From positions 1-41,828 of the forward strand of contig REDW01000096.1 in the NCBI GenBank assembly GCA_007693325.1: 41,828 nucleotides of DNA, read 5' to 3'. A program made the translations under genes and the position numbers. Each line of letters opens with the position of its first letter. The stretch's first letter is position 1. The notes below the pieces were generated by a model that was not told the origin of the DNA, ran no database searches, and saw only the letters and a list, made by a program, of their open reading frames with translations. Shown here piece by piece: positions 26,861-40,628 of the stretch. This DNA comes from Spirochaetaceae bacterium. Its GTDB lineage: Bacteria > Spirochaetota > Spirochaetia > DSM-27196 > PWMO01.

Positions 26861-27612
26861 TGTATTCGCGCAGCCACAAAGGTTATGTTGTCCCTGCCTC
26901 CGCCGGCCTTTGCCGACTCTACCAGCTCCTGGCCGGCCGAAGTCAGGTCTCCACTGGTTGATAGTACGTCCCAGATCACCGCGTCGTCAACCATGTCCGA
27001 GAGTCCGTCACTGCAGATCAGGAAGAGATCTCCGGGCGAGCTCTGAACTGCAACGCGAAAAAAGTCGATGAAGAACTCGTCCTGCGAACCGAAGCAATTG
27101 ACCAGGATGTTGCCGGGAATTCGCGGGTCACCGCTGAACTCGCGCAGGGTGTGATCACGCGACAGGCGGTGAAAGTGATTGCCTGAGCCCAAATAGAAGC
27201 GGCTATCGCCGGCGTGCGCAACGTACCAGCGCCCCTGGTAGTGAAACAGGACCGTTGCCGTGGTTGCCATTCCCTCGTAGCGCGGGTTCATGATGCCTTT
27301 GCGCAGCAACGCGTTGTGCGCGTCCAGACACGCCCGGCGCAGCGCCTGTTCCAGCTGCTCCTCATCGAGCTGGTTGTCGAGAGTGTTGACGCACTGCGCC
27401 AGCTGCTCGATCACGTAGCGGCTGGCGATTTCTCCGGCATTGCTGCCGCCGACACCGTCGGCAACGCCGAGCACCATTGCGCTCCCGTTGTCAACGCTTT
27501 CGATTGCCGAGAACACCCCATCGCGAATGAAGGTGCGGCCCACAACTGCGATATCTTCGTTATTGCTGCGAGCCAGTCCTACGTCGCTGGCCGCAACTAT
27601 TTCCAGCATCAT
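26857..27612 (-). CDS. PP2C-family serine/threonine phosphatase
   Basis: 251 residues, cytoplasmic. Metal and phosphate motifs occur in family order: SDVGLARSNNEDI, VADGVGGSNAGEIAS, GMATTATVLF (usually GMGTT), VAHAGDSRFYL, LSRDHT, ICSDGLSDMV and GGGRDNITFV. The set is complete, so activity is expected. The start at 27612 overlaps the stop of the EAL gene (TGATG), so the phosphatase is made together with a cyclic-di-GMP protein. A partner kinase is not in the window. Confidence 0.92.
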   Translation of the reverse strand: MMLEIVAASDVGLARSNNEDIAVVGRTFIRDGVFSAIESVDNGSAMVLGVADGVGGSNAGEIASRYVIEQLAQCVNTLDNQLDEEQLEQALRRACLDAHNALLRKGIMNPRYEGMATTATVLFHYQGRWYVAHAGDSRFYLGSGNHFHRLSRDHTLREFSGDPRIPGNILVNCFGSQDEFFIDFFRVAVQSSPGDLFLICSDGLSDMVDDAVIWDVLSTSGDLTSAGQELVESAKAGGGRDNITFVAARIQ

Positions 27613-29189
27613 CAGATCTCGACCTCGGCACTCGAGAGCGCCGCGGCGCGAAACGCCTGCAGAGTCATCGGCCGCTGAAAATAGTAGCCCTGGATGCAGC
27701 GGCATCCCTGCTGGTACAGATAGCTTGCCTGTTCATAGGTCTCGATTCCTTCCGCAACCACGCTGATACCCATGGATTCCGCCATCGAGAGTATTGCGCG
27801 CACAATGCCCTGCGTATTGCTGTTAATCAGCACATCTTCGATGAAACTCTTGTCCAGCTTTATGGTGCTGATCGGGAAGCGCTTCAGATAGTTGAGCGAG
27901 GAGTAGCCGGTACCGAAATCATCGATGGAAATCTGTATGCCCATCTCGTGGATGGCCTGAATCTTGCGGATAGAGTCATCGGGGTCGTCCATGACGCTGT
28001 TCTCGGTGACCTCCAGCTTCAACTGCGATGGATCGATATGGTTGCGACGCAGAACCCGCGATATATTCTCCAGCAGATAGTCATCCTTGAACTGCCGCGG
28101 CGACAGGTTGACCGTCACAAACAGCCGCTCGAGACGGGTACCGAGCCAGGTCTCGAGCTCCGCGGTTGCATTGAACAGCGCCCAATAGCCAATCGGCACA
28201 ATCAAGCCGGTCTCTTCGGCCAGCGGGATGAAACGCGCCGGGGCAACCATGCCGCGCGTAGGGTGTTTCCAGCGAATAAGCGCCTCAGCGCCTACGGTAT
28301 GGTAGTCGATGATGCCGCTCTTGATATCGTCGATTTCCACAAGCGGTTGGAAATAGAGTTCAAACTGCTTGTCGATCTCGCTTATCGCCTGTTCCTCGAG
28401 CGCCCGAATGATGTTGTTCTGCAACTCCATCTTCTCGATGACCTCATGACCCATCTCGGGATCGTAGATCATCACCGCACGCTGGCGCTTGACGGCCGCC
28501 GTCAGGGCGATATCCGCACTACGCAGCAGCATCCGCTTCGAACGCGCGTGTTCGGGGTAGCAGGCAACACCGCAGACGCAGCCTACAGCCAGCGAATAGT
28601 CGGGGAATTGCATCGGGCGCGAGACTTCCTTTACCACCCTGCGCGCAAAGTCGGCCACACTGGCCGGCGGACCGAGGTTTATCACCAGCATCACAAACTC
28701 ATGATCGCGGGTGTGGTAGAGACGCCCGTTGGAGGGCAGTTGTTCGCGCAGACGCTCGGCGGTGCGGTAGAGCAGCCACTCGCTGATTCCGGCTTCAGTG
28801 GTTTGCTTGATATTGTCGTAGCGCTCGTCGAGCCCCACTATGATGACGGTGACACTCTTGGCGGTTGGACTCTGCTCGGCTTCCTCGAGAATTGAATGAA
28901 TATCGCCGTCCATCACCACATGATTCGGCAATCCGGACTTGCGGTTGTAGATCAGCTGCTTCTCGAGCCGATTCTGCCGCCGCTCCTTCTGCTGAACGGC
29001 TTCGCTCAGCCGGCGAACCTGAGCCAGCGTCTCATTCAGCGAACTCTGCAGCTTGCCAACCGATCCCTCGAGAGCACGCACTCGCTGTTTGACATCCTCG
29101 GGCACGTCGTCACGCGACAGTATGTCGGCCAGACGGAGTTCCGAGGAAGCTGCATGAGATGCATTACTGTGACGCCGCTTGTCGATCAT
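27612..29189 (-). CDS. Degenerate GGDEF plus EAL protein (probable c-di-GMP phosphodiesterase)
   Basis: 525 residues from the ATG at 29189. A coiled coil (about 25-85) leads into a GGDEF-like domain whose signature has become TRDHEF, so cyclase activity is unlikely. The EAL domain follows and is intact: GAEALIRWKHP, VNLSPRQF, LEVTENSVM, IDDFGTGYSSLNYL, KLDKSFI, VVAEGIET and QGYYF. An upstream TTG at 29282 would add a hydrophobic stretch, but that segment runs through the divergent promoter, so I prefer 29189; the point is not settled. The GGDEF remnant may bind GTP or c-di-GMP as an allosteric site. Confidence 0.85.
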   Translation of the reverse strand: MIDKRRHSNASHAASSELRLADILSRDDVPEDVKQRVRALEGSVGKLQSSLNETLAQVRRLSEAVQQKERRQNRLEKQLIYNRKSGLPNHVVMDGDIHSILEEAEQSPTAKSVTVIIVGLDERYDNIKQTTEAGISEWLLYRTAERLREQLPSNGRLYHTRDHEFVMLVINLGPPASVADFARRVVKEVSRPMQFPDYSLAVGCVCGVACYPEHARSKRMLLRSADIALTAAVKRQRAVMIYDPEMGHEVIEKMELQNNIIRALEEQAISEIDKQFELYFQPLVEIDDIKSGIIDYHTVGAEALIRWKHPTRGMVAPARFIPLAEETGLIVPIGYWALFNATAELETWLGTRLERLFVTVNLSPRQFKDDYLLENISRVLRRNHIDPSQLKLEVTENSVMDDPDDSIRKIQAIHEMGIQISIDDFGTGYSSLNYLKRFPISTIKLDKSFIEDVLINSNTQGIVRAILSMAESMGISVVAEGIETYEQASYLYQQGCRCIQGYYFQRPMTLQAFRAAALSSAEVEI

Positions 29190-29224
29190 TGGACTTGCCC
29201 AACACGGTAATATAACACATGCGA

Positions 29225-29280
29225 CTAGCACAACCCCGGATACGGTATATAATATTGGCGTAGCAGAGGCAAATTGCCTC
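29225..29280 (+). promoter_or_regulatory. Promoter and operator-like palindrome of the PRC-barrel gene
   Basis: CTAGCA (29225-29230), a 17-nt spacer and a perfect TATAAT (29248-29253) form the promoter. Downstream, GAGGCAA (29266-29272) and TTGCCTC (29274-29280) make a perfect 7-1-7 palindrome in the leader, before AAGGAGG (29294-29300) and the ATG at 29306. Its place just after the expected transcription start suits a repressor site or a short leader hairpin. Confidence 0.55.
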
Positions 29281-29305
29281 AAAGTCGACCCGCAAGGAGG
29301 CGATT

Positions 29306-30073
29306 ATGATACACGGAATCCGCAAGATGCACGGCTTCAAGATCCACGCCACCGATGCCGAACTGGGGCACGTAGAGGACTGGTATTTTGACGACGAAGA
29401 TTGGGTTGTACGCTACCTGGTTGCCAAGACCGGTTTCTGGTTCCTGGGCAAAGAAGTACTGATTTCACCGCATTCGGTCACCGCGGTAGATTGGGACAAG
29501 CGCGAGGTCAACGTTAATCTCACCAAGCAGCAGGTGGAACAGAGCCCTGACATCGATACACACCAGCCGATCTCGCGCCGCAAAGAGAACGAATTTCATC
29601 TCTACTACAACGTTCCGGCCTACTGGGGCGGCCTGGGTCTGTGGGGACACGAGATGGTACCCAACGGCCGCCCATTGGACAGCGACGCAGACACCAGCGA
29701 GGCGTGTGCCGAGGAAGACGAGCACCTGCGCAGCGTTCGTGAAGTCATCGGCTATCGGCTGCACGCGGTGGACGGTGATTTGGCGCAGGTCAGTGACTTC
29801 CTGTTCGACGAACAAACCTGGGCGCTGCGCTACGTGCTGGCTCACCTCACCGGCCGCGGCGGTGGGCGCGCGATTGTGATTCCACCGAAGTTGGTCGATC
29901 ACGTAGTGTGGACGCGCGCTCACGTGGCCGTCAATGCCTCGCAGGAGCAGATTCTCTCGGCACCGGCGCTGGAAAAAGACCGCACAACCCTCGATCGCGA
30001 CTTCGAGACCCGCATTTTCAGCCACTACACAACTCACCCGTACTGGGTAAGCGAAGAGGCGCAGCGCGAGTAA
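29306..30073 (+). CDS. PRC-barrel domain protein
   Basis: 255 residues, soluble, acidic. Two PRC-barrel-like units are visible. The first spans about 1-75 (GFKIHATDAELGHVEDWYFDDEDWVVRY with the strand KEVLISPHSV). The second spans about 147-215 (GYRLHAVDGDLAQVSDFLFDEQTWALRY with AIVIPPKLVDHVVW). Such tandem PRC proteins are common in halotolerant and environmental bacteria and lack an assigned reaction; they are often stress-induced. It has its own strong promoter and Shine-Dalgarno. It ends 115 bp before the first flavoprotein gene and is probably not part of that operon. Confidence 0.82.
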   Translation: MIHGIRKMHGFKIHATDAELGHVEDWYFDDEDWVVRYLVAKTGFWFLGKEVLISPHSVTAVDWDKREVNVNLTKQQVEQSPDIDTHQPISRRKENEFHLYYNVPAYWGGLGLWGHEMVPNGRPLDSDADTSEACAEEDEHLRSVREVIGYRLHAVDGDLAQVSDFLFDEQTWALRYVLAHLTGRGGGRAIVIPPKLVDHVVWTRAHVAVNASQEQILSAPALEKDRTTLDRDFETRIFSHYTTHPYWVSEEAQRE

Positions 30074-30083
30074 CCCGCAAAGG

Positions 30084-30116
30084 AGCGCAATCTCACACTT
30101 CTGCCGGCTTTGCGCT
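30084..30116 (+). terminator. Possible hairpin after PRC-barrel gene
   Basis: AGCGCAA (30084-30090) and TTGCGCT (30110-30116) form a 7-bp stem with a 19-nt loop just after the PRC stop. The right arm touches the TTGACA of the next promoter. There is no T-run, so termination is doubtful. Confidence 0.25.
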
Positions 30117-30153
30117 TGACACGCGCCCCGTTTTGTATTATTTGTAGTTACAA
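30116..30153 (+). promoter_or_regulatory. Promoter with TTGTAGTTACAA operator (site 1)
   Basis: TTGACA (30116-30121), a 17-nt spacer and TATTTG (30139-30144). The last three bases of that -10 begin the 12-bp inverted repeat TTGTA-GT-TACAA (30142-30153). Bound protein would block the -10. The same repeat occurs at three other promoters between 33.8 and 39.6 kb, and site 4 has the identical -10/operator register. Confidence 0.6.
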
Positions 30154-30188
30154 GCATTGGCTTCGCAACGTTTAGAAGCGGGGGTAGC

Positions 30189-31673
30189 ATGTATTCACAC
30201 GACATCATCATCATTGGCGGTGGCGCCGCCGGTCTATCGGTAGCGTCGGGCTGCGCTCAACTGGGCATGAAAACGGCGGTGATCGAGCGCGAACACATGG
30301 GCGGCGACTGTCTGCATTTCGGCTGTGTTCCGAGCAAGACGCTGCTGCACATTGCAGCCCGGTTTGCTGCGCAGCGAGACGCGGCCGCGTTTTCGCATAA
30401 ACCGCCGGCTGCACTTGAGCCGCAGATGAGCGCCGTCAACGCCAGAATCGCTGCGGTTATCGGCAAGATCGCATTCCATGACTCACCCGAGCGCTTCCGG
30501 GCACTGGGTGCCGAGGTGTACCTGGGGAGCGGCAGCTTCATCTCAGAGCACGAAGTCGAGGTTGACGGCAGGCGTCTATCGGCAAGGACCATTGTGATCT
30601 CCACCGGCAGCCGCGCGGCAATTCCACCGGTGGAGGGTCTGGAGGGTGTGGGTTACCTGACCAACCGCGACGTCTTCTCTCTGGCGCAGCTGCCGCGCTC
30701 GCTGGCAATTCTGGGGGCGGGACCTATCGGGGTTGAACTCGGCCAGGCCTTTCGCAGGTTGGGTACGGAGGTGACAATAGTCGATATGGCGCCGCGGATT
30801 CTGCCACGCGATGACCCGGAGATGTCTGCAATTGTGGCCGCCCGGCTGGAGCGTGAAGGCATTCGCAGCATAATGAACGCCAGGGCCGAAAGGGTCTCTG
30901 CCGCCAACGGCGCAAAGCAGGTTGACCTCAGCACTACTGCAGCCGACGGTAGTAGCGAGACTCAGACGCTGTCAGCCGACGAAATTCTGGTTGCCGCGGG
31001 GCGAGTGGCTAACACGGACTCGCTCAATGCCGCTGCGGCCGGGATAGAGATAGGCCCTCGGGGCTATATTGCGGTTGACAACAAGCTGCGTTCCAACGTG
31101 CGCCACATCTACGCCATCGGCGACACTAACGGTACCTTTCCCTTCACCCACGTTGCCGGAGCCGAGGCTGCGCTGGTGGTACGGCGCGTTGCGCTGCACG
31201 CCGGCGGCAGCATGAATTACCGCTGCGTACCGTGGGTCAGCTACACCGATCCGGAGCTGGCCAGCGTTGGTCATTCCGAGGATAGCGCTACGCGCGAAGG
31301 CATCCAGCACCGTGTAGTGCGGCAGAGTTTCTCGGGCGTGGATCGAGCCCACGCCGAAGATGCCACCGACGGTCTGCTCAAGATAGTACTGGACCGCCGT
31401 GAACGGGTGATCGGCGTTCAGATTGCCGCTGCCGGGGCCGGAGAGCTGCTGAGCCCGGCGCTGCACGCGGTTTCCAAACGCTGGAAACTGTCGGCGTTTC
31501 GTAGCGCGATGACGCCCTACCCCACCATGGCAGAGGTATACGCGCGCGCGGTTTCGGCGCAGATGGCTCCCAGGCTGTTCAATCCGCGCATGCGCAAAAT
31601 TCTGCGAGCCGTGTTCCGCTATCGCGGTCCCGGACCGCAGTCAGCCGCTCAATCCGACACCCACAAGGAGTAG
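30189..31673 (+). CDS. MerA-like FAD/NAD(P) disulfide oxidoreductase
   Basis: 494 residues. The FAD site is IIIIGGGAAGLSVA, the redox disulfide is GGDCLHFGCVPSK (Cys41, Cys46), and the NAD(P) site is LAILGAGPIGVELGQAF. The second FAD motif is IYAIGDTNG, and a dimer domain occupies the last 130 residues. In glutathione-reductase relatives a His-Pro-Thr near the C-terminus supplies the catalytic base; here it reads PYPTMAEV, with Tyr instead of His. There is no N-terminal heavy-metal domain and no C-terminal Cys pair, so true mercuric reductase is unlikely. It is followed 3 nt later by the TVP38/TMEM64 gene, a pairing seen in many bacteria. Substrate unknown. Confidence 0.85.
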   Translation: MYSHDIIIIGGGAAGLSVASGCAQLGMKTAVIEREHMGGDCLHFGCVPSKTLLHIAARFAAQRDAAAFSHKPPAALEPQMSAVNARIAAVIGKIAFHDSPERFRALGAEVYLGSGSFISEHEVEVDGRRLSARTIVISTGSRAAIPPVEGLEGVGYLTNRDVFSLAQLPRSLAILGAGPIGVELGQAFRRLGTEVTIVDMAPRILPRDDPEMSAIVAARLEREGIRSIMNARAERVSAANGAKQVDLSTTAADGSSETQTLSADEILVAAGRVANTDSLNAAAAGIEIGPRGYIAVDNKLRSNVRHIYAIGDTNGTFPFTHVAGAEAALVVRRVALHAGGSMNYRCVPWVSYTDPELASVGHSEDSATREGIQHRVVRQSFSGVDRAHAEDATDGLLKIVLDRRERVIGVQIAAAGAGELLSPALHAVSKRWKLSAFRSAMTPYPTMAEVYARAVSAQMAPRLFNPRMRKILRAVFRYRGPGPQSAAQSDTHKE

Positions 31674-31676
31674 ACA

Positions 31677-32420
31677 ATGCAACCACACAAATCCGCCACA
31701 GCATTGACCAAGAATGTGCGAGTGGTGCTGTTTGTTGCCGCGGTCATCCTGATGCTGCTGCTCGGCTGGGCGCTGGATGCACCGCGGCACCTGCAGAATG
31801 CGTTGTTCTGGGTAGACAGTCTGGGTCTGTGGGGACCGGTAGTATACGTTGGCATTTACATCCTAGTGTGCATATTGATGATTCCCGGCTCGATCCTGAC
31901 CTTGGGAGCCGGAGCAGTATTCGGCGTATTGCGCGGCACCATCTATACTTCCGTCGGTTCCACCCTCGGTGCCACCGCTGCCTTCATGCTGGGCCGCTTT
32001 CTGCTGCGCGACTGGGTAAAACAGAAGGTTGAGACCAGTCCGCGGCTTGCAGCCGTTGATGAAGCGGTTGGCCGCGAGGGTGCCAGAATCGTTTTTCTGC
32101 TGCGTATGTCGCCGCTGGTGCCGTTCAGTATTTCCAACTATGTCTACGGTCTGACCCCGGTCAAGCTCGGACGCTACATCGTGGCGTCCTGGCTGGGAAT
32201 GATTCCCGGCACCATCATGTACGTCTATATCGGCTCGCTGGCACGACGCCTGGCCGAACTGGGCGCCGCGGAACGCAGCACCTCGCCTGCGGAATGGACG
32301 CTCTACGTTGTCGGCCTGATTGCCACGGTCATTGCAACCGTGCGGGTAACGGTGGTCGCCCGCCGTGCGCTCAAGCGGCGCGTCAGCCTCGATGAGCCGC
32401 CGCAGGAAGGCCAGGGCTGA
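31677..32420 (+). CDS. TVP38/TMEM64 (DedA-superfamily) membrane protein
   Basis: 247 residues with about five membrane segments. The family core is clear: MIPGSILTLGAGAVFGVLRGTI, STLGATAAFMLGRFLLRDWV, FLLRMSPLVPFSISNYVYGL and ASWLGMIPGTIMYVYIGSLA. The re-entrant regions and conserved Arg in FLLRMSP are as in YdjX/YdjZ of E. coli. Members are thought to move lipids or small molecules, and their cargo is mostly undefined. It is cotranscribed with the flavoprotein gene. It is convergent with the second flavoprotein gene, with 4 bp between the stops. Confidence 0.9.
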   Translation: MQPHKSATALTKNVRVVLFVAAVILMLLLGWALDAPRHLQNALFWVDSLGLWGPVVYVGIYILVCILMIPGSILTLGAGAVFGVLRGTIYTSVGSTLGATAAFMLGRFLLRDWVKQKVETSPRLAAVDEAVGREGARIVFLLRMSPLVPFSISNYVYGLTPVKLGRYIVASWLGMIPGTIMYVYIGSLARRLAELGAAERSTSPAEWTLYVVGLIATVIATVRVTVVARRALKRRVSLDEPPQEGQG

Positions 32421-32424
32421 CCTG

Positions 32425-33798
32425 TTACGTGATCGGCTTGAGATCGGCAAAGACCCACGGAATCAGCTCGGCCACCGTTGGGTGCGGTAGTACCGTATCC
32501 TGAATTGCGCTGTACGGAAGCCCGGCCTGCATCGCCAGTGCCAGCATCCCGATGATCTCATCCCCGCCGACTCCAAAGATCGTTGCTCCCAGGATTTTGT
32601 TGGTCCCGGCTTCCACCACAACCTTCACCAGACCGGCTGTTTCATCCTTCTCGCGCGCACGGTTGACTTTGCTCATTGGCATGGTTGCCATCAGCGCCTT
32701 CTTTCCGCTGGCGCGGACTTCGGTTTCCGACATACCCACTCGCGCCAGCGGGGGATCGATGAACATCGAGTGAATCGGCGTGCGGTCGCTGATTTTCTTG
32801 CTGCCGAGGGCCAGATGGTCGAGAAAGACCTGCCCGTCGTGGACCGAGGTGTGCGTGAACGCGCCGCGGCCGTTTACGTCACCGATAGCGTAGATGTGCG
32901 GCACTGAGGTGCGCCCAACATCGTCAACCGTGATAAACCCGCGCTCATTGGTAGCCACGCCGGCGGCCTCGAGGTTGAGATCGTCGCTGTTAGGGACGCG
33001 TCCAACGGCAATCAGAATATGCGATCCTTCGACCGTTGATTGTCTGTCCCCCTGGCTATAGCTCAGCGCAACACCATCGCGGTACTGTTTGCCGGCGGCA
33101 AGCTGCAGCGCCTCGGCACCGAGCTGAAACTCAATTCCCTCTGCCGATAAGACCTCCAGCGCGATATCACTGATATCGGGATCCTCGCGCGTTACAATCC
33201 GCTGGTTGTGCTCCAGAACGGTAACACGGCTGCCGAATCTACGGTAGGCCTGTGCGAACTCCAGCCCGATGTAGGATCCACCGAGAACCAGCAGGTGCTC
33301 AGGAATCTCGGCCAGGTCCAGAACACCGCGGTTATCGAGCCAGTTGACGCTCTCGATACCGGGTATTGAAGGAGTCCGGGCGCGGGTACCAGTATGAATG
33401 ACTATAGTCTCACCGCGCAACCGGGCATCGCCAACCGATAGCGTGCGGTCATCTTCAAAACGAGCTGATCCGGGGTAGAAATCGGTGGCCTCTTCCAGCC
33501 ACGACTGGAACCCGTCGCTGGCAGGAACGCGCATCGCGTTGACGCGCTGCATCACTTTTTCAAAGCGCACCGCTACACCCGCAACATCCACGCCAAAGTC
33601 TGCACCACGGCGTGCCATATGCGCCGCGCGTGCGCTGGCAACCATGGTCTTGGTCGGTGTGCAGCCCCAGTTGACACACGATCCTCCGACTCGGTCGCGC
33701 TCAATCGTGGCAATTGTCAGATTTCGGTTGAGCAACTCTGCAACAAGTGTGCCGGTGGCCTGCCCGGTCCCGATCAGGATTACATCGTAGTGTTTCAT
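32425..33798 (-). CDS. MerA/RclA-like FAD-dependent disulfide oxidoreductase
   Basis: 457 residues. The FAD motif is VILIGTGQATGTLVA (variant of GxGxxG). The redox disulfide is GGSCVNWGCTPTK (Cys41, Cys46). The NAD(P) site is LLVLGGSYIGLEFAQAY, followed by IYAIGDVNGRGAFTHTS. The C-terminal base motif PHPTVAELIPW keeps the catalytic His, unlike the paralogue at 30189. It may be a disulfide or metal-ion reductase of the kind used in oxidant or thiol stress; the substrate is not predictable. A strong Shine-Dalgarno precedes the ATG. It shares the same 12-bp operator as the 30189 gene, so the two should respond to one signal. Confidence 0.86.
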   Translation of the reverse strand: MKHYDVILIGTGQATGTLVAELLNRNLTIATIERDRVGGSCVNWGCTPTKTMVASARAAHMARRGADFGVDVAGVAVRFEKVMQRVNAMRVPASDGFQSWLEEATDFYPGSARFEDDRTLSVGDARLRGETIVIHTGTRARTPSIPGIESVNWLDNRGVLDLAEIPEHLLVLGGSYIGLEFAQAYRRFGSRVTVLEHNQRIVTREDPDISDIALEVLSAEGIEFQLGAEALQLAAGKQYRDGVALSYSQGDRQSTVEGSHILIAVGRVPNSDDLNLEAAGVATNERGFITVDDVGRTSVPHIYAIGDVNGRGAFTHTSVHDGQVFLDHLALGSKKISDRTPIHSMFIDPPLARVGMSETEVRASGKKALMATMPMSKVNRAREKDETAGLVKVVVEAGTNKILGATIFGVGGDEIIGMLALAMQAGLPYSAIQDTVLPHPTVAELIPWVFADLKPIT

Positions 33799-33822
33799 TC
33801 ACCTTCCTCCGCTGGATCTCTA

Positions 33823-33865
33823 TTGTAACTACAACTATTCTAACAAAACCCTTACCGCGTGTCCA
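33823..33865 (-). promoter_or_regulatory. Promoter with TTGTAGTTACAA operator (site 2)
   Basis: On the minus strand TGGACA (33865-33860), a 17-nt spacer and TAGAAT (33842-33837), a near-consensus promoter. Two nucleotides later comes TTGTAGTTACAA (33834-33823), identical to site 1 and covering the expected transcription start. The ATG is 24 nt further on with a GAGGAAGG ribosome binding site. Confidence 0.68.
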
Positions 33866-33995
33866 GTCCCAACGCTGCACAGGCGTGCCTGGACGCGTGC
33901 ACGCCTGGCCCGAAAAAAGAGCCGAGTGGGGCAACGATCCTGCCACACCGGTTGAAACCCTCTAAACTGCCGCTACAGGCTGAAGGAGAGAACCG

Positions 33996-34241
33996 ATGGC
34001 AAACGCAAGTAACGCCGCAAACGATGTACTGGATATCCGCAGCGAAGTCTGCCCCTACACTTTGGTCAGGAGTAAGCTGGCTCTGGAACAGATGGAGGCG
34101 GGCGAGATACTGGAAATTCACCTGGGTAACAGTGAGTCCGCGTCCAACGTTCCGCGCAATATAGCGCTGGAAGATCATGAGATCCTCTCGGTTGAAAGAC
34201 CGCAATCCTCGCACTGGATTGTACGGGTCAAACGGGCTTGA
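33996..34241 (+). CDS. TusA/SirA-family small sulfur-carrier-like protein
   Basis: 81 residues, the family length. The TusA signature is near the start: LDIRSEVCPYTLVRSKLALEQM, shown here in two parts as DIRSEVCPY and TLVRSKLALEQM, with Cys19. The usual CPxP has become CPYT. This is followed by GEILEIHLGN and a C-terminal strand, WIVRVKRA. TusA proteins carry persulfide sulfur on the Cys. A good AAGGAG lies 8 nt before the ATG. It sits between the second flavoprotein and the YnjBCD-type ABC operon; E. coli has a sulfurtransferase (ynjE) beside ynjBCD, so a sulfur-related role for the set is plausible but unproven. Confidence 0.8.
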   Translation: MANASNAANDVLDIRSEVCPYTLVRSKLALEQMEAGEILEIHLGNSESASNVPRNIALEDHEILSVERPQSSHWIVRVKRA

Positions 34242-34281
34242 ACAGAGCGCACGCATGATCTAGCCACTGACAACCGACTAT

Positions 34282-34345
34282 CCAGCGTTCGGCAATCAGC
34301 GCACCGCATAGGACGCTGGTACCCGGTTTGACTTCGAAAACCGGG
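34282..34345 (+). other. Structured intergenic RNA or weak terminator
   Basis: Two hairpins lie between tusA-like and the ABC operon. One is CCAGCGT/ACGCTGG (34282-34288, 34313-34319, long loop). The other is CCCGGTTT/AAACCGGG (34322-34329, 34338-34345, 8-nt loop). No T-run follows, so this is at best a weak terminator or a leader structure. Confidence 0.3.
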
Positions 34346-34382
34346 AATACCGTTGATCGCGGACTGCGGTGCTCGAAAATAC

Positions 34383-34411
34383 TTGCCACGCGGCCACGCT
34401 TGTATATACAA
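34383..34411 (+). promoter_or_regulatory. Promoter with TTGTATATACAA operator (site 3)
   Basis: TTGCCA (34383-34388), 16 nt, and TATACA (34405-34410). The -10 lies inside the fully symmetric 12-mer TTGTATATACAA (34400-34411). The ABC-operon ATG is 25 nt downstream. Confidence 0.58.
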
Positions 34412-34435
34412 TAAACCCAGGAAAACTCAATACGA

Positions 34436-35404
34436 ATGAATGTAGCGGTAGACAAGCTCACAAAGCGCTTCGGCGAGACGCACGTATTGCGAGACCTGAG
34501 TCTCTCGGTATCACACGGAGAGTTTGTCTCGGTGCTGGGACCCTCGGGCGTCGGCAAGACTACGCTGCTGAAAATCCTGGCGTCGCTGGAAAACCCGGAC
34601 AGCGGATCGGTGCAGTGCGGCGGACGTAACGCGGTGCTGGTATTCCAGGATTACGTTCTGTTCCCGTTTCTCACCGTGCATCAAAACGTGGCGTTTGGCC
34701 TCGAGGCGCGGCGGATGCCCCAGCGTGACATTGCCGCCCGCGTTGGGCGGCTGCTGTCGCACTTCGGCCTGAGCGATAAGGCCACAGAGTACCCGGCCAG
34801 GCTCTCGGCAGGGCAGAAACAGCGCGTGGCTCTGGCCCGCGCGCTGGCGGTTGAACCGCAGTTGTTGCTGCTGGACGAGCCGCTGGCAAATCTGGACAAG
34901 AACCTCAAACGTGATACAGCGCTCTACCTGCGCCGTGTGCAGCGCGAGTTTGGCATTACCACTATCTGTGTGACGCATGATCAGGAAGAAGCCATGGCTA
35001 TCTCGGACCGCATAGCCGTAATGCTGGACGGAGAGATCAAACAGCTGGGAACCCCGGCTACCGTCTATTACCAACCCAACTCGGTGGCGGTAGCCAGGTT
35101 CATGGGACCGGTCTCCGTCCTGCCCAATTCGTTACTGGCGTGTCGCAACGCCTCCCTCGCAGATCAGTCTGGTACCTGCATGCTGCGTCCCGAGCAGGTT
35201 GTGCTGCGGCCGTCAGCATCGGGATCGCTGCTGGTCACCGAGGTGCGGCTGCTCGGACTGTATCAGTTCTGCATCCTCGAGGCGCACGGAGTTGATTACG
35301 AGGTGTTCACCTCGCACCCGGCTGACCTGCAGCGCGGCCAGAGAGTGGAGATCTCGCGCGTTGCCGTTGCTTTTGAGAAGGAGCCTGTCCATGAAACGAT
35401 CTGA
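34436..35404 (+). CDS. ABC transporter ATP-binding protein, YnjD-like
   Basis: 322 residues. Walker A is GPSGVGKTT (about 35-43), the Q-loop is VFQDYVLFPF, and the signature is LSAGQKQR (variant of LSGGQ). Walker B is LLLLDEPLANLD and the switch His is in CVTHDQEEAM. A TOBE-type regulatory domain of about 90 residues ends the protein. It energises import through the two permeases encoded downstream. Assignment to the YnjBCD group rests mainly on the substrate-binding gene, which it overlaps by 14 nt. By itself it also resembles thiamine, iron or polyamine importers. Confidence 0.88.
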   Translation: MNVAVDKLTKRFGETHVLRDLSLSVSHGEFVSVLGPSGVGKTTLLKILASLENPDSGSVQCGGRNAVLVFQDYVLFPFLTVHQNVAFGLEARRMPQRDIAARVGRLLSHFGLSDKATEYPARLSAGQKQRVALARALAVEPQLLLLDEPLANLDKNLKRDTALYLRRVQREFGITTICVTHDQEEAMAISDRIAVMLDGEIKQLGTPATVYYQPNSVAVARFMGPVSVLPNSLLACRNASLADQSGTCMLRPEQVVLRPSASGSLLVTEVRLLGLYQFCILEAHGVDYEVFTSHPADLQRGQRVEISRVAVAFEKEPVHETI

Positions 35405-36614
35405 ACGCTACCGGCTTGTGCTTCTGACGGTAGCCGCTTTTCTGCTGATCGCCTGTACTGCGCAACAGGAGGTTAATCTGCTCGAGCTTGACTACCCCCG
35501 GATCGAGCAGCAGGCGCGAGGTGGCGAGGTGCGTTTTGCGATGTGGGGCGGCGACGCGCGCATCAACCGCTGGGTTGACAGCTACGTTGTCCCTGAACTG
35601 CAGCAGCGCTATGACATTCGACTACTGCGGGTATCTACCGACGCCGCGCAAGTAGTCAACCGATTGCTCAGTGAACGCCAGGCCGGTAGAAGCCGCGGCA
35701 GTATAGACCTGATCTGGATCAACGGCGAGAACTTCCGGCGGGCGCGCCGCGAAGACCTGCTGTTTGGCCCCTACACCCATCTGATTCCTAACCTGGAACT
35801 GACTGACCCCGAGGAAGTGAGCTACGATTGGGGTTTTCCGGTTGACGGCTACGAGTTACCCTGGGGGCGCGGCCAATTTGTCTTCGAGTACGATTCGGCT
35901 ATCATCAACCAGCCTCCGGACTCAATTGAGGCGCTGGACCGCTGGATCCGCGACAATCCCGGCCGGTTCACCTATCCGCAGCCGCCGGATTTCACCGGAG
36001 CAGCTTTCATTCGCCATCTTTTCTACTACTTCAGCGGCGGTTACCGGGATTACCTCGACGGCTTCGATCAACGCCTGTACCAGCAGAACTCCGCCGCGCT
36101 GTGGGACTATCTGCGCGAAATTGAACCCTATCTGTGGCGCGAAGGCCAAACGTATCCAGCCGACAAGGCGCAGCTCGACGTTTTATTTGAGAACGGCGAG
36201 GTGGATTTCAACATGTCCTATACACAGTCCGGCGCGCAGGGGCTGATCGACGCCGGGCGCTATCCGTCGAGCGTACGAACCTTTGTGCTGCAGCGAGGTA
36301 CGCTTACCGGAATCCACTTTACCGCTATTCCGTTCAACGCGCCGAACAAGGCCGCCGCTATGGTTGCCTCCAACTTTCTGCTGTCTGCAGATGCGCAGTA
36401 TTCCAAGTTTGTACCGCAGAATTGGGGCGATTTCACCGTTCTTGATCTGGACCGCTTGAGCGAGGCCCAACGCCGACGATTTCTCGAACTCGATTTAGGT
36501 CCGGCCACCCTCCCGGTAGATGTGCTGGCGCAACACAGTGTACCGGAGATACCAGCCGAATACGTTGACGCCATGGTCGAAGACTGGGAACGGGAGATAC
36601 TGCGGCGTGAGTAG
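35391..36614 (+). CDS. YnjB-type substrate-binding lipoprotein
   Basis: 407 residues. A lipoprotein signal (LLIAC, Cys22) anchors it outside the inner membrane. The mature part is strikingly like E. coli YnjB in order and motif: VRFAMWGGDARINRWVD, SIDLIWINGENF, LPWGRGQFVFEYD, FTYPQPPDFTGAAFIRHL, YLWREGQTYP, and NFLLSADAQ followed by the WGD motif. YnjB-family proteins deliver an unknown ligand to YnjC/YnjD. The ATG at 35391 lies inside the ATPase gene; upstream in-frame codons are that gene in another frame. Its last 8 nt overlap the first permease. Confidence 0.88.
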   Translation: MKRSERYRLVLLTVAAFLLIACTAQQEVNLLELDYPRIEQQARGGEVRFAMWGGDARINRWVDSYVVPELQQRYDIRLLRVSTDAAQVVNRLLSERQAGRSRGSIDLIWINGENFRRARREDLLFGPYTHLIPNLELTDPEEVSYDWGFPVDGYELPWGRGQFVFEYDSAIINQPPDSIEALDRWIRDNPGRFTYPQPPDFTGAAFIRHLFYYFSGGYRDYLDGFDQRLYQQNSAALWDYLREIEPYLWREGQTYPADKAQLDVLFENGEVDFNMSYTQSGAQGLIDAGRYPSSVRTFVLQRGTLTGIHFTAIPFNAPNKAAAMVASNFLLSADAQYSKFVPQNWGDFTVLDLDRLSEAQRRRFLELDLGPATLPVDVLAQHSVPEIPAEYVDAMVEDWEREILRRE

Positions 36615-37431
36615 GAGCTGGAGCATCCGCAGGGCGTGCGCTCTTCTGCCGCTGTTGCCGTTTGTGCTGTTCATTGCCGCCGGGGTTGGCTATACCGTGT
36701 TACAGTCTCTGGGCTTGTGGATCTCGGCGCATTCCGCAGAGAGCTACCCCGCGGGATACGCGGTCATTCTCCGGTCAGCCTGGTTCTATCGGTCGCTGCT
36801 GTACAGTCTGTGGATCGCAACCGTATCAACGCTGCTCTCGGTTGTCCTGGGCACGCTGCTGGCGCTGCTGCTGCGCGGTCTGCCGCAGCGGCTCTACCCG
36901 TTTGCACTGATGTACAAGATTCCGCTGATACTACCGCACGTGGTGATCGGACTGATAGTACTGCTCGGGTTCGGCCGCGGCGCTGCCCTGGGGCGGCTGT
37001 TGGCCGCACCGGGCAGCTCGGCGCTGGTCAGCGCCTACGTATTCAAGTCTGCCTCATTTGTTACGCTGCTGGTTTACGCTGTGCTGCGCGGTTTTGACCT
37101 GCGCCAGCTGGAGACCGCACGGATGCTCGGCGCCGGCGCGCTGCTCAGTTTTCGGGCCCTGTTGCTGCCGGTAATCCTGCCACCGGCGGCCACCGCCGGC
37201 GTTATTGTTTTTCTGTTCAGTTTTGGCGCATTTGACCTGCCGTTCCTGCTCGGCGCCAGCCGGCCTGCGATGCTGGCCATCGACGTCTACAACCGATACT
37301 GGTACCGGGACCTCTCAGCGCGCCCGGCGGCAATGGCCAGCCTGGTGGTGATGTTCCTGTTCTCGTTGCTGTTTGTAACCGTCTACTTCCGCCTGGTTCG
37401 AAGACAGAAGCACGGGATACGCCATGTTTGA
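36607..37431 (+). CDS. ABC transporter permease 1 (N-terminal half of YnjC equivalent)
   Basis: 274 residues from a GTG at 36607 with GGGAG upstream, overlapping the binding-protein stop by 8 nt. About six membrane helices are visible. The coupling-loop motif is near the middle (LETARMLGAGALLSFRALLLPVILP, EAA-like). E. coli YnjC is one protein with two permease halves; here the halves are separate genes. It forms the channel with permease 2. Confidence 0.86.
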   Translation: MSRSWSIRRACALLPLLPFVLFIAAGVGYTVLQSLGLWISAHSAESYPAGYAVILRSAWFYRSLLYSLWIATVSTLLSVVLGTLLALLLRGLPQRLYPFALMYKIPLILPHVVIGLIVLLGFGRGAALGRLLAAPGSSALVSAYVFKSASFVTLLVYAVLRGFDLRQLETARMLGAGALLSFRALLLPVILPPAATAGVIVFLFSFGAFDLPFLLGASRPAMLAIDVYNRYWYRDLSARPAAMASLVVMFLFSLLFVTVYFRLVRRQKHGIRHV

Positions 37432-38224
37432 ACGCTCAGCCGGTCCTGCGCGGTGCCCGGACTACCTGCGGTTAGCGGCAATAGCCGGCTTGTTCGCGCT
37501 ACCGGTTGTCATGTTGCTGTTCTACAGCCTCAGCGCGCGCGGACAAGCCGAACCAACACTGCGGGCCTGGCGCTACCTGTTTGCAGAACGACGCAACTTT
37601 CTGTCGGCGCTGGCATCATCGCTAAGCTACGGATTCAGCGCGGTTATAGTTGCCTTTGTCAGCTGTGTCCTGCCCGCGAAGGCGATCGCTCGAGCACACG
37701 GTTCTCACACCGCCGCGATTGAAGCGGTCCTGCTGACGCCGGCGCTCTTACCGAGCATCAGCTTCGCTATCGGGATCCATCAGCTCTTCATCCGTGCGGG
37801 CCTGGTCGACACCTGGGTGGGTGTACTGCTGATACTCTCATTTGTCAGTTACCCCTATATGCTGCGCGCACTGATTGCATCCTACGAATCTATAGACCCG
37901 GCATACGAACAGTGTGCGCGTAACCTGGGAGCCGGCGCCCTGCGCACCTTCCTGCGCGTCGAGCTGCCGTTCCTGCTGCCCGGTGCGGCAGCCGGTGGTT
38001 CGGTGGTCTTTCTGGTGGCCTTTTCGGATTATTTTCTGGTTTTCCTGGTCGGCGGAGGTATTGTACCGGCTTTCACGAGCTACCTGGTTCCGTTCATCCG
38101 CTCGGCGGATTACTCGATCGCGAGTGCACTCTCGATCATTTTTTTGCTGGTCCCGATTGGGCTGTTTGTACTGCAGGATCGGGCCCTCACGCTGCTGCTG
38201 CGCCGCCGCGGCATGTCCGTCTGA
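37424..38224 (+). CDS. ABC transporter permease 2 (C-terminal half of YnjC equivalent)
   Basis: 266 residues, about six membrane helices, with an EAA-like loop (YEQCARNLGAGALRTFLRVELPFLLP). It starts 8 nt inside the end of permease 1. It is the last gene of the ABC operon; 8 bp separate it from the convergent marR gene, with no terminator visible between them. Confidence 0.86.
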   Translation: MFERSAGPARCPDYLRLAAIAGLFALPVVMLLFYSLSARGQAEPTLRAWRYLFAERRNFLSALASSLSYGFSAVIVAFVSCVLPAKAIARAHGSHTAAIEAVLLTPALLPSISFAIGIHQLFIRAGLVDTWVGVLLILSFVSYPYMLRALIASYESIDPAYEQCARNLGAGALRTFLRVELPFLLPGAAAGGSVVFLVAFSDYFLVFLVGGGIVPAFTSYLVPFIRSADYSIASALSIIFLLVPIGLFVLQDRALTLLLRRRGMSV

Positions 38225-38232
38225 GAGCTCCG

Positions 38233-38694
38233 CTACTGCTCGTAGAACCGCTTGAGAGCCGAAAGCGCCAGCATCCAGCGCGCGTGCCCCACGCGCCTTA
38301 TGGTCCGAGTCTGGGCAGCCTTCCAGCGCGGCAGGCATTCATCCAGCGCCGTTAGCCCCGCTTGCGCCAGAACGTACTCTCGACGGCGCCGGTCACTACC
38401 GGAGACCGTTTCAACCATGGCAGAACGTACCAGGGCGTCCATATTGCGCGAGACCGTGCTCAAGTCAGAGCTCAATCGCTGCGAGAGCGCTCCGGTGGAC
38501 AGCGGCGAATCCAGCGCCAGGTTCAGCAGCACGGTGAACTGTCCGGCGGTTACGGGGGCCCCGCGGAACTCCTCATCAAACCAGCGCGCCACGGTCTTGT
38601 CTGCGCGCCGAAGGTTATAGCCAGGACAGAACGCTGCGATACCGCGCAGTTGGCGCTTGAGTCCGGGGTTGTGGTTCAGGCGGTCACGGCTCAT
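38233..38694 (-). CDS. MarR-family transcriptional regulator
   Basis: 153 residues from the ATG at 38694, overlapping the DUF547 gene by 11 nt. The winged helix is typical: VTAGQFTVLLNLALDSPLST, then GALSQRLSSDLSTVSRNMDALV and a wing with GSDRRRREYVLAQAG. Helices at both ends should form the dimer. One Cys (AAFCPGYNLRRAD, near residue 21) sits where redox-sensing MarR proteins often carry theirs. It shares a transcript with DUF547 behind site 4 of the TTGTAnnTACAA repeat, which makes it the best candidate to bind all four sites. Confidence 0.86.
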   Translation of the reverse strand: MSRDRLNHNPGLKRQLRGIAAFCPGYNLRRADKTVARWFDEEFRGAPVTAGQFTVLLNLALDSPLSTGALSQRLSSDLSTVSRNMDALVRSAMVETVSGSDRRRREYVLAQAGLTALDECLPRWKAAQTRTIRRVGHARWMLALSALKRFYEQ

Positions 38695-39529
38695 TGAGTA
38701 CCCAGTCGTAATCGTGCCTGGGCCGCGGCCGATAGCGGTTGTTGGAGTAGCGGCGCAAATCGGCCGCCAACTGGTCCTCAGCGTACTGTAGCATATGCGC
38801 AACAACCCCGTCGATATCGCCACCAAAATCCACCTGGTACCAATCGAAAATGCTCGACATGTACAGCCGGTTATCCTCAAAGCGCGCTCCGCGGGGATGA
38901 TTGATGTACTCGCGCGCGGCTGTGTCAAACAGCTCACGGTAGTTTGCGGCCGTGAACGCTACCGGTTGCAGATTGGGACAGCCGATGCTGGCACAGTTCA
39001 CCGCGTAGTGAATCCGCTCGTCCTGCCAGATCGGCCGTATTACGCGGTGTTCAATGTCGTTCAGCGACATCGCTTCTCCTTCCACAACCACCAGCTCTGC
39101 ATCCCACGGATGGCGATTAAGGACCGATCCCGATATCCCGATATCTCGAATTGAATCCACCGGGTAGTGCTCCAGAATCAGCTCAACGGTAACCGCGTTG
39201 TACAGATTGAGCCAGTAGGCCATCTGCTCATCGCGGTTGAGCCCGGACACGTGCACCGCCTCCAGCGCGGCAATATAGCTCTGCAACAGCGCTCTGTCCT
39301 GTGCGCTCACCCGGCGGTAGCGAACACGGTTGACTCCCGACGGATGGTCCGTCAGCAGATAGCGGTCCAGCAACGTTTCCCATTGTGAGTGGTCAATCTC
39401 GACAGCACTGTCTGGATCGTGCGCCTCCCAGCGCGGCCACAGCTCGGCCTGCGGCGCAGCGTGAAGCGCCGCGGTCGACAGAACAAGAATCAGTATAGCA
39501 ACGCTGAGACGGCCGCCGATTCGTTTCAT
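38684..39529 (-). CDS. Exported DUF547 protein
   Basis: 281 residues from the ATG at 39529 (GGAGG 8 nt upstream), with a signal peptide (about 1-24, ILILVLSTAALHA). DUF547 motifs are clear: AYWLNLYNAVTVELIL, LNDIEHRVIRPIW, and IHYAVNCASIGCPNL with Cys179 and Cys184. The fold is thought to be related to papain-like or transglutaminase-like enzymes, but no reaction is established. In other bacteria DUF547 genes are often near TVP38/TMEM64 and MerA-like genes, as here. It is cotranscribed with marR. Confidence 0.88.
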   Translation of the reverse strand: MKRIGGRLSVAILILVLSTAALHAAPQAELWPRWEAHDPDSAVEIDHSQWETLLDRYLLTDHPSGVNRVRYRRVSAQDRALLQSYIAALEAVHVSGLNRDEQMAYWLNLYNAVTVELILEHYPVDSIRDIGISGSVLNRHPWDAELVVVEGEAMSLNDIEHRVIRPIWQDERIHYAVNCASIGCPNLQPVAFTAANYRELFDTAAREYINHPRGARFEDNRLYMSSIFDWYQVDFGGDIDGVVAHMLQYAEDQLAADLRRYSNNRYRPRPRHDYDWVLNEP

Positions 39530-39561
39530 TTGCAACACCTCCTGCATCGGTCAAGCAATGC

Positions 39562-39599
39562 GTGTATATACAAATACAATATTTGCAGGCGGATGTCCA
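39562..39599 (-). promoter_or_regulatory. Promoter with TTGTATATACAC operator (site 4)
   Basis: On the minus strand TGGACA (39599-39594), 17 nt, and TATTTG (39576-39571), whose last three bases begin TTGTATATACAC (39573-39562). This is 11 of 12 matches to site 3 and has the same -10/operator register as site 1. It controls DUF547-marR, giving feedback on the regulator. Confidence 0.58.
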
Positions 39600-39636: not shown

Positions 39637-40473
39637 TCAGTCGATTCCCACCTGCGCTCCGAGTCCGGGATCGTAAAGATTCTCCGATTGCGTCTCGGCT
39701 TTCTGTGCCCGCAGACGCAGCAATCCGATATAGGCTCCCCGGTCACGGTCGAGCGCTTCAGCGGCCGAAGGAAAGACGCCCTTGCCAGACAGCTCAAGCG
39801 CACGCTCAAAATCGCGCCAGTGGCGCCAGCCCTCAGGCATAGTGTCTGCGCTGAGCTCACACACTGCAGCGCAGCGGCGCCAGCGGCTGAGCCATTCATA
39901 GGCGGTAAGAAAGCTCCAGCAGTCGTTCTCCCAGAAGCAGCTGCCGTTGGCCTGCGGTTGCAGCAGGTGCGGCGGCGGATCGTCGCTGATCGGCTGCATA
40001 AGGCCGGGAACCACCACCGCGAGCTGCCCGCCCGGCCGAACAAACCGACTCAGATAACTGAGATACAGCACGTCAGTGCCAAAATACTGGTAGGCGTCGA
40101 TCGAGACAACCGCGTCGAAAAACCCTGCCGCAAACGGGATCGCGTGAGCTTCCATGCGCAGAGGTATCACCCGCTCAGCAACACCGGCGGCCTGAACGCG
40201 CTGCCAGTTGTTATCCGGGCCAATCCACAGATCCGCGGCCCATACGGCCACGTTGTACTCGCGCGCCAGAAAGATGCTGGAGATCGCGCGACCGCAGCCC
40301 AGGTCGAGCAGCCGCATGCCGGGCTTGAGGTCAAGGCTGTTGCTGAGCCACTCAGCAAGCCAGACGGCGTTGGGCCCCATCTGGTTATCGAGCATCCAGT
40401 CGTGATCGTAATGCCGCGAACGTGGAAACTCGGGCTTGTCCAGCAACGCTGTCAGTTCGGTCTTCTCTTTCAT
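39637..40473 (-). CDS. Class I SAM-dependent methyltransferase
   Basis: 278 residues from the ATG at 40473; an in-frame TTG at 40488 is less likely. The SAM site is GMRLLDLGCGRAISSIFLA, followed by VAVWAADLWIG, AHAIPFAAGFFDAVVSIDAYQYFG and a post-core strand, VRPGGQLAVVVPGL. The N-terminal MGPNAVWLAEWLSNSL and C-terminal half suggest the small-molecule or lipid-type group near cyclopropane-synthase-like enzymes, with no certain substrate. It is a separate transcription unit upstream of DUF547-marR, with no TTGTAnnTACAA copy in front of it, so membership in that regulon is unproven. Confidence 0.8.
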   Translation of the reverse strand: MKEKTELTALLDKPEFPRSRHYDHDWMLDNQMGPNAVWLAEWLSNSLDLKPGMRLLDLGCGRAISSIFLAREYNVAVWAADLWIGPDNNWQRVQAAGVAERVIPLRMEAHAIPFAAGFFDAVVSIDAYQYFGTDVLYLSYLSRFVRPGGQLAVVVPGLMQPISDDPPPHLLQPQANGSCFWENDCWSFLTAYEWLSRWRRCAAVCELSADTMPEGWRHWRDFERALELSGKGVFPSAAEALDRDRGAYIGLLRLRAQKAETQSENLYDPGLGAQVGID

Positions 40474-40628
40474 CCTATTGTTTGTCAACCGTGCCCACCT
40501 GCGTGATGGCGTTATACGTAATCCTGCAACTCGTGAACCCGTCTATCGGCCAACTGCAGCATTCTATCGAGGCACTCACGGGCGTCCATGGGTCACATAG
40601 TGAGGTTCCGCCATGGAGTTGTCAAGAA
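40474..40628. other. Non-coding gap before tRNA gene
   Basis: About 155 bp between the methyltransferase start and the tRNA. I see no supported gene; a 69-codon plus-strand frame here runs into the tRNA and has no ribosome binding site. Together with the tRNA and the region to 40795 this is the only stretch over 300 bp without a protein gene. Confidence 0.5.

Follow-up and report, generated by a model that had tools for sequence, protein, structure and literature searches.

A conserved MosR-type operator marks dispersed promoters linked to a MosR-like MarR subfamily in Spirochaetales

MosR (Rv1049) of Mycobacterium tuberculosis has the operator consensus GTGTAnnTACAC, printed as g-tgtan-ntaca-c, after Brugarolas et al. 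2012 (PMC9506551 Table 2). The protein is described as leaving DNA upon oxidation of Cys10 and Cys12 within one chain, and OhrR as using Cys22 and Cys127′ (PMC5823404). The window, the whole 41.8 kb stretch of spirochaete DNA analysed here, contains four palindromic promoter sites, three exact copies of TTGTAnnTACAA and one copy with a single mismatch, and the ten-base core of the MosR operator, TGTAnnTACA, together with its 2-bp centre, is identical to this motif. The outer base differs, being G in MosR but T in most of the spirochaete sites, with one arm of site 4 again having G, and positions 1 and 12 are among those most often altered in one-mismatch sites. The MarR protein encoded in the window is likewise closest in sequence to MosR, and its presumed operator has the core of G-TGTAnnTACA-C. 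Each regulator has an N-terminal Cys where helix 1 begins; autoregulation, presumed here, and control of an oxidoreductase are also common to both. As described, MosR targets itself and a secreted oxidoreductase, whereas at least seven promoters are marked here. There is good support for a MosR-like MarR with a conserved operator and regulon; the kind of system is known and the regulon itself appears undescribed, as no description of it was found in the open literature, most subscription journals lying outside the search.

A sequence-only reading of the window had placed operators at four promoters, and all four positions and strands are correct, with no further copy in the 41.8 kb at zero or one mismatch. 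Site 1, TTGTAGTTACAA at 30142-30153 on the plus strand, lies on the -10/start region of the FlavA-TVP38 promoter, in which TTGACA (30116-30121) and TATTTG (30139-30144) are separated by 17 nt (30116-30144 in all) and the -10 element shares 3 nt with the operator. Site 2, TTGTAGTTACAA on the minus strand at 33823-33834, is directly downstream of the FlavB promoter, TGGACA-17-TAGAAT with an extended TG (33865-33837), which ends 2 nt ahead of the operator; an effect on the divergent tusA could be conceived. In site 3, TTGTATATACAA at 34400-34411 on the plus strand, the right half-site is the -10 box of the ynjDBCC promoter, TTGCCA-18-TACAAT (34383-34412). Site 4, the one-mismatch copy TTGTATATACAC on the minus strand at 39562-39573, overlaps the promoter TGGACA-17-TATTTG of DUF547-marR and is presumed to be the autoregulatory site of this operon; MarR dimers bind palindromes and often do so at the promoter of their own gene. 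All four promoters are sigma-70-like, and each operator is on or directly against a -10 box, as first read. The spacing of 16-17 nt originally given for the -35 element holds for sites 1, 2 and 4 (17 nt each) but not for site 3, at 18 nt, and the TATTTG/operator register noted as common to sites 1 and 4 is present. An operator at a -10 box is well suited to repression by blocking RNA polymerase, and the positions found here fit such a mode; binding by the MarR and repression at these sites are inferred. In shuffled windows 0.27 copies are expected, with a maximum of two, and none of 100 shuffles contained four. An Rfam scan of the region returned a tRNA as its sole match.

The genes downstream of the sites are for the most part redox-related. 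FlavA (30189-31673, plus strand) is a pyridine nucleotide-disulfide oxidoreductase (Pyr_redox_2 6e-64, Pyr_redox_dim 1e-23) whose translation has a CxxxxC motif, is MerA/PRK06370-like, carries YPT in place of HPT and lacks a C-terminal Cys pair; its best NCBIfam matches are under their cut-offs. The gene for a TVP38/TMEM64 membrane protein (31677-32420, plus strand; VTT_dom 2.5e-30) follows after 3 nt and is presumably cotranscribed. FlavB (32425-33798, minus strand; Pyr_redox_2 2.5e-56), a second disulfide oxidoreductase, is PRK06370/RclA-like with an intact HPT motif and scores 560 bits against NF004992 (cut-off 629). Divergent from it is a TusA-like sulfurtransferase gene (33996-34241, plus strand; TusA 1e-15), whose membership of the regulon is uncertain. 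The ABC transporter operon ynjD-ynjB-permease-permease, ynjDBCC (34436-38224, plus strand), comprises ORFs at 34436-35404, 35391-36614, 36520-37431 and 37424-38224, with an ABC_tran domain (1.6e-30), a YnjB family match (PRK11622, 497 bits, cut-off 203) and BPD_transp_1 twice. On the minus strand, the DUF547 gene (38684-39547; DUF547 1.8e-25) is the first of the DUF547-marR operon, and its end is overlapped by the ATG of the gene for the 153 aa MosR-like MarR regulator (38233-38694). Flanking genes include one for a SAM-dependent methyltransferase (39637-40488, minus strand), just upstream of DUF547-marR and without an operator of its own, an adjacency kept in G003 and G004, and, just before the FlavA operon, a GGDEF-EAL gene (27612-29282, minus strand) divergent from a PRC-barrel gene (29306-30073, plus strand), the latter neighbour being kept in G004.

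The ydjXYZ-ynjABCDEF cluster of E. coli encodes TVP38-type proteins, an AhpD-like protein, the YnjBCD transporter and a rhodanese. This is the same gene mix as in the spirochaete regulon, and suggests that the gene set belongs together. The E. coli ydjXYZ-ynjABCD genes are, however, listed as an FNR-regulated operon (PMC3688515) and are not MarR-controlled as far as found. A trio of DUF547, FAD oxidoreductase and VTT genes like that of the window is also present on a plasmid of the alphaproteobacterium Roseomonas, where DUF547 genes also adjoin arsenosugar-type genes (L278 9019-9834, 16512-18819). The motif is absent from this plasmid stretch, and none of the plasmid neighbourhoods has the operator beside DUF547. 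An arsenosugar link through such plasmid neighbours was rejected, TIGR04282 being over its cut-off in none of the 46 genomes of the order.

Five exact copies of the motif are present in the 3.47 Mb host genome and three of these are in the window; at the genomic density, the chance of at least three within 9.5 kb is ~4e-7. The two exact sites elsewhere are located between a rhodanese-TlpA gene pair and a YHS gene (C139:17360) and 23 nt before the gene of a cyclase-ATPase-TPR protein (C12:13863), and a one-mismatch site is 21 nt before a DUF3179 gene (C77:8568). Had the motif been frequent at unrelated places, or had it been lost from relatives, the sequence-only reading would have been abandoned, but all five exact copies are in promoters and the same genes carry the motif in related genomes. 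Each exact copy recurs at the homologous promoter of at least one relative, so that none of the five looks like background: the rhodanese/YHS site is found again in locus L153 and the TPR-gene site in L154, L155, L139 and L168, and the one-mismatch DUF3179 site recurs in L156 and several other loci. One-mismatch copies number 23 genome-wide, versus 37 for the reversed control pattern, so most such matches that are not at target genes are noise, and a one-mismatch scan was dropped as a predictor of the regulon, its counts not being above the control.

Five families of the order Spirochaetales are represented among the relatives, largely MAGs that appear to be from soda lakes, and in these relatives the motif is present at the same genes as in the host, namely flavoprotein-TVP38, the second flavoprotein, ynjDBCC, DUF547(-marR), DUF3179, YHS and marR. 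Close orthologs of the MarR come from Spirochaetales/Spirochaetaceae MAGs with the isolate names CSSed, DLM2 and B1Sed10, names which by themselves suggest soda-lake sediments and mats as habitat. The entire window block is kept in G003, with four sites, before DUF547-marR, ynjDBCC, FlavB and FlavA; G023 has five exact sites in 14 kb, at an HD-GYP/MCP pair, DUF547, FlavA-TVP38/DUF3179 and FlavB, and in the one-contig genome G007 the order is marR-site-DUF547-DUF3179-TVP38, with more sites before FlavB and ynjD. Most relatives that have FlavA keep operator 1 at its promoter, exact FlavB sites are also found in G003 and G004, and exact ynjD sites in G003, G004, G010, G012, G036, G043 and G007. 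The counterpart of operator 4, at an equal distance, is exact in G012 and has one mismatch in G003 and G004. Counted over the order, sites with no or one mismatch are present at the majority of FlavA promoters and at roughly two in three DUF547 promoters. Other site-bearing genes in relatives encode DsrE, an AhpD-like (CMD) protein, an aldo/keto reductase and an SDR, as well as GH15, adenosine deaminase, CoaBC-like and HD-GYP signalling proteins; as some of them share an intergenic region, certain genes in this list may not be targets. In G031, which lacks the MarR, the FlavA, DUF547 and ynj genes are without sites in the DNA seen, whereas its congeners G016, G022 and G039 keep the FlavA site. 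G045 was considered as a lineage without window-type marR and FlavA site and rejected, as an exact site is located 326 nt upstream. In the g12 genomes and G020, the genes of an NMT1/THI5-like ABC importer and DUF547 diverge, with one or two operators between them (L137 8003-10679; L141 1045-3694). The FlavA orthologs of G005, G015, G038 and G022 (L224, L225, L229, L236) each contain just one in-frame stop within the stretch that matched (TGA in one ortholog, TAG in three), which may be at the 3′ end. In some other families of the class, genomes contain 8-19 exact copies each without a strong match to the MarR subfamily, probably AT-rich background or sites of other regulators; four genomes of family f30 (G087, G104, G128 and G138) have 14-19 exact TTGTAnnTACAA copies each, versus 4-7 for controls, without a match to this MarR, and here another regulator with a similar operator is possibly at work.

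The closest solved relative of the window MarR is M. tuberculosis MosR (E 3e-10 with the protein, 1.1e-24 with the profile; next best 1.9e-13). The profile matched 111 PDB sequences, with MarR proteins ranking highest; against Pfam MarR_2 the window protein (P0001) is just under the cut-off of 27 (26.7 bits, E 6e-6) and its host paralog above it, and the window protein carries the sequence signature of the family. An AlphaFold model (pLDDT 76, pTM 0.76; low confidence in the Cys region) has the MarR fold, with MarR, MosR and BpsR as best Foldseek matches. OhrR is similarly a MarR dimer with a Cys at the N-terminal sensing position, and is matched by the window MarR profile (E 7e-8), but it is a weaker relative than MosR, the C-terminal partner Cys is absent from most subfamily members, and no Ohr/OsmC protein was found among the target proteins scanned. 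Cys23 is invariant in all 26 subfamily sequences; in alignment it corresponds to the first Cys of the MosR Cys-Ala-Cys. The second is replaced, mostly by G or A, and because MosR Cys12 is a glycine in the window MarR, which thus lacks the CxC of an intrachain disulfide, the MosR switch cannot operate as described. For this reason the protein is not classed as a MosR ortholog; it is better called MosR-like than plain MarR.

We consider it likely that the window MarR, a MosR-like dimer with a single cysteine, has TTGTAnnTACAA as its operator, represses a dispersed redox regulon and is released via Cys23 or a ligand. The dimer would repress transcription by occupying the -10/start region of the promoters under its control, that of its own DUF547-marR operon included; once Cys23 is oxidised or its thiol modified, or once a ligand enters the dimer cleft, the dimer would leave the operator and so switch on a dispersed thiol/sulfur redox regulon. 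Its members in the host would be the two flavin disulfide reductases, TVP38, the YnjDBCC importer, rhodanese-TlpA/YHS, DUF547 and DUF3179, with DsrE, an AhpD-like protein, an aldo/keto reductase and HD-GYP signalling proteins added in relatives. Thiol/sulfur functions are frequent among the targets. That the signal at the MarR is a redox signal has, in our estimate, an even chance, and the natural inference for a protein with one Cys, a mixed disulfide or persulfide, stands at about the same level.

Many MarR proteins respond to ligands, and there is an appreciable, if lesser, chance that this one senses a small molecule (a phenolic, a sulfur compound or the YnjBCD substrate), with Cys23 structural and the regulon metabolic rather than redox. 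The absence of the MosR resolving cysteine and the importer, GH15, adenosine deaminase and CoaBC-like genes with sites in relatives are consistent with this; the recurring targets, disulfide reductases, rhodanese, TlpA, DsrE, YHS and the AhpD-like protein, and the alignment of the invariant N-terminal Cys with the MosR/OhrR sensing region argue for a redox switch.

A further MarR of the subfamily is encoded in the host (C99:7913-8305); it is 43% identical to the window MarR and has the same S-T-x-S-R recognition-helix pattern, so that either may bind the operator. It is less likely than not that this paralog, or both proteins, are the main readers of a real operator in the host, with the window MarR local or auxiliary. 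Several relatives with only C99-type paralogs (e.g. G001, G005, G023, G028, G040) nevertheless keep many sites, at FlavA, DUF547 or DUF3179, and the C99-type paralog may therefore share or own the operator, which amends the initial reading of a single MarR. Against its being the main reader, no operator is present in the 14 kb around the C99 paralog, in contrast to the marR operon of the window, and ynjDBCC sites mostly accompany the window-type MarR; there are none in the DNA seen of G001, G005, G018, G028 and G031 (exceptions are G007, G010 and G020). The site at its own operon thus favours the window MarR as main reader in the host.

The link between operator and MarR does not depend on selection by motif. 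Thirty loci were picked by MarR protein alone and sites with at most one mismatch were counted within 1.5 kb, which yielded 20 sites in 19 of the 30 loci, against a first-order Markov expectation of 0.7 and 0-2 matches for each of six scrambled palindromes. A comparison of genomes with and without a subfamily MarR gave 111 exact motifs versus 43 reversed controls in MarR-bearing genomes of the order and 2 versus 20 in MarR-less ones (Fisher p 1.6e-8, phylogenetic kinship ignored). A site directly precedes marR, at -36 to -53 nt, in six genomes (G008, G021, G026, G036, G043, G015); several others with a subfamily MarR (e.g. G009, G016, G029) have no site within 1.5 kb of the gene. The operator is thus conserved at orthologous promoters together with the regulator, and the MarR subfamily as a whole probably reads it. 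A transcription factor of another family could read the palindrome, with MarR merely one of its targets, since MarR binding here is predicted and the gene of a regulator may be targeted even when its product does not bind the promoter; this is very improbable, given the agreement with the MosR consensus, the persistence of the site-marR linkage in protein-picked loci and the absence of a DNA-binding regulator domain from all 20 other site-region proteins scanned. Chance palindromes of AT-rich promoter DNA, with which the one-mismatch counts would agree, are refuted by the cross-family footprint, in which exact copies cluster and recur at orthologous promoters over five families, and by the near absence of the scrambled palindromes from marR loci. 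The proposal of one MarR-controlled regulon in 9.5 kb is therefore supported, by conservation, the linkage in 19 of 30 loci, the contrast by MarR presence and the MosR core (PMC9506551), but the regulon is genome-wide and extends far beyond 9.5 kb.

More tentatively, and at somewhat less than even probability, the MosR-like protein may be an order-wide, one-Cys regulator of the response to reactive sulfur or oxidants, with DUF547, DUF3179, YHS, TVP38 and YnjBCD parts of one thiol/sulfur-redox pathway. Already on the main reading, an operator type described for a single mycobacterial regulator runs a multi-promoter regulon in a distant phylum, with an apparently different cysteine arrangement, and several families without assigned function, DUF547, DUF3179, YHS, TVP38 and YnjBCD, are tied to one switch and so to one testable physiological condition.
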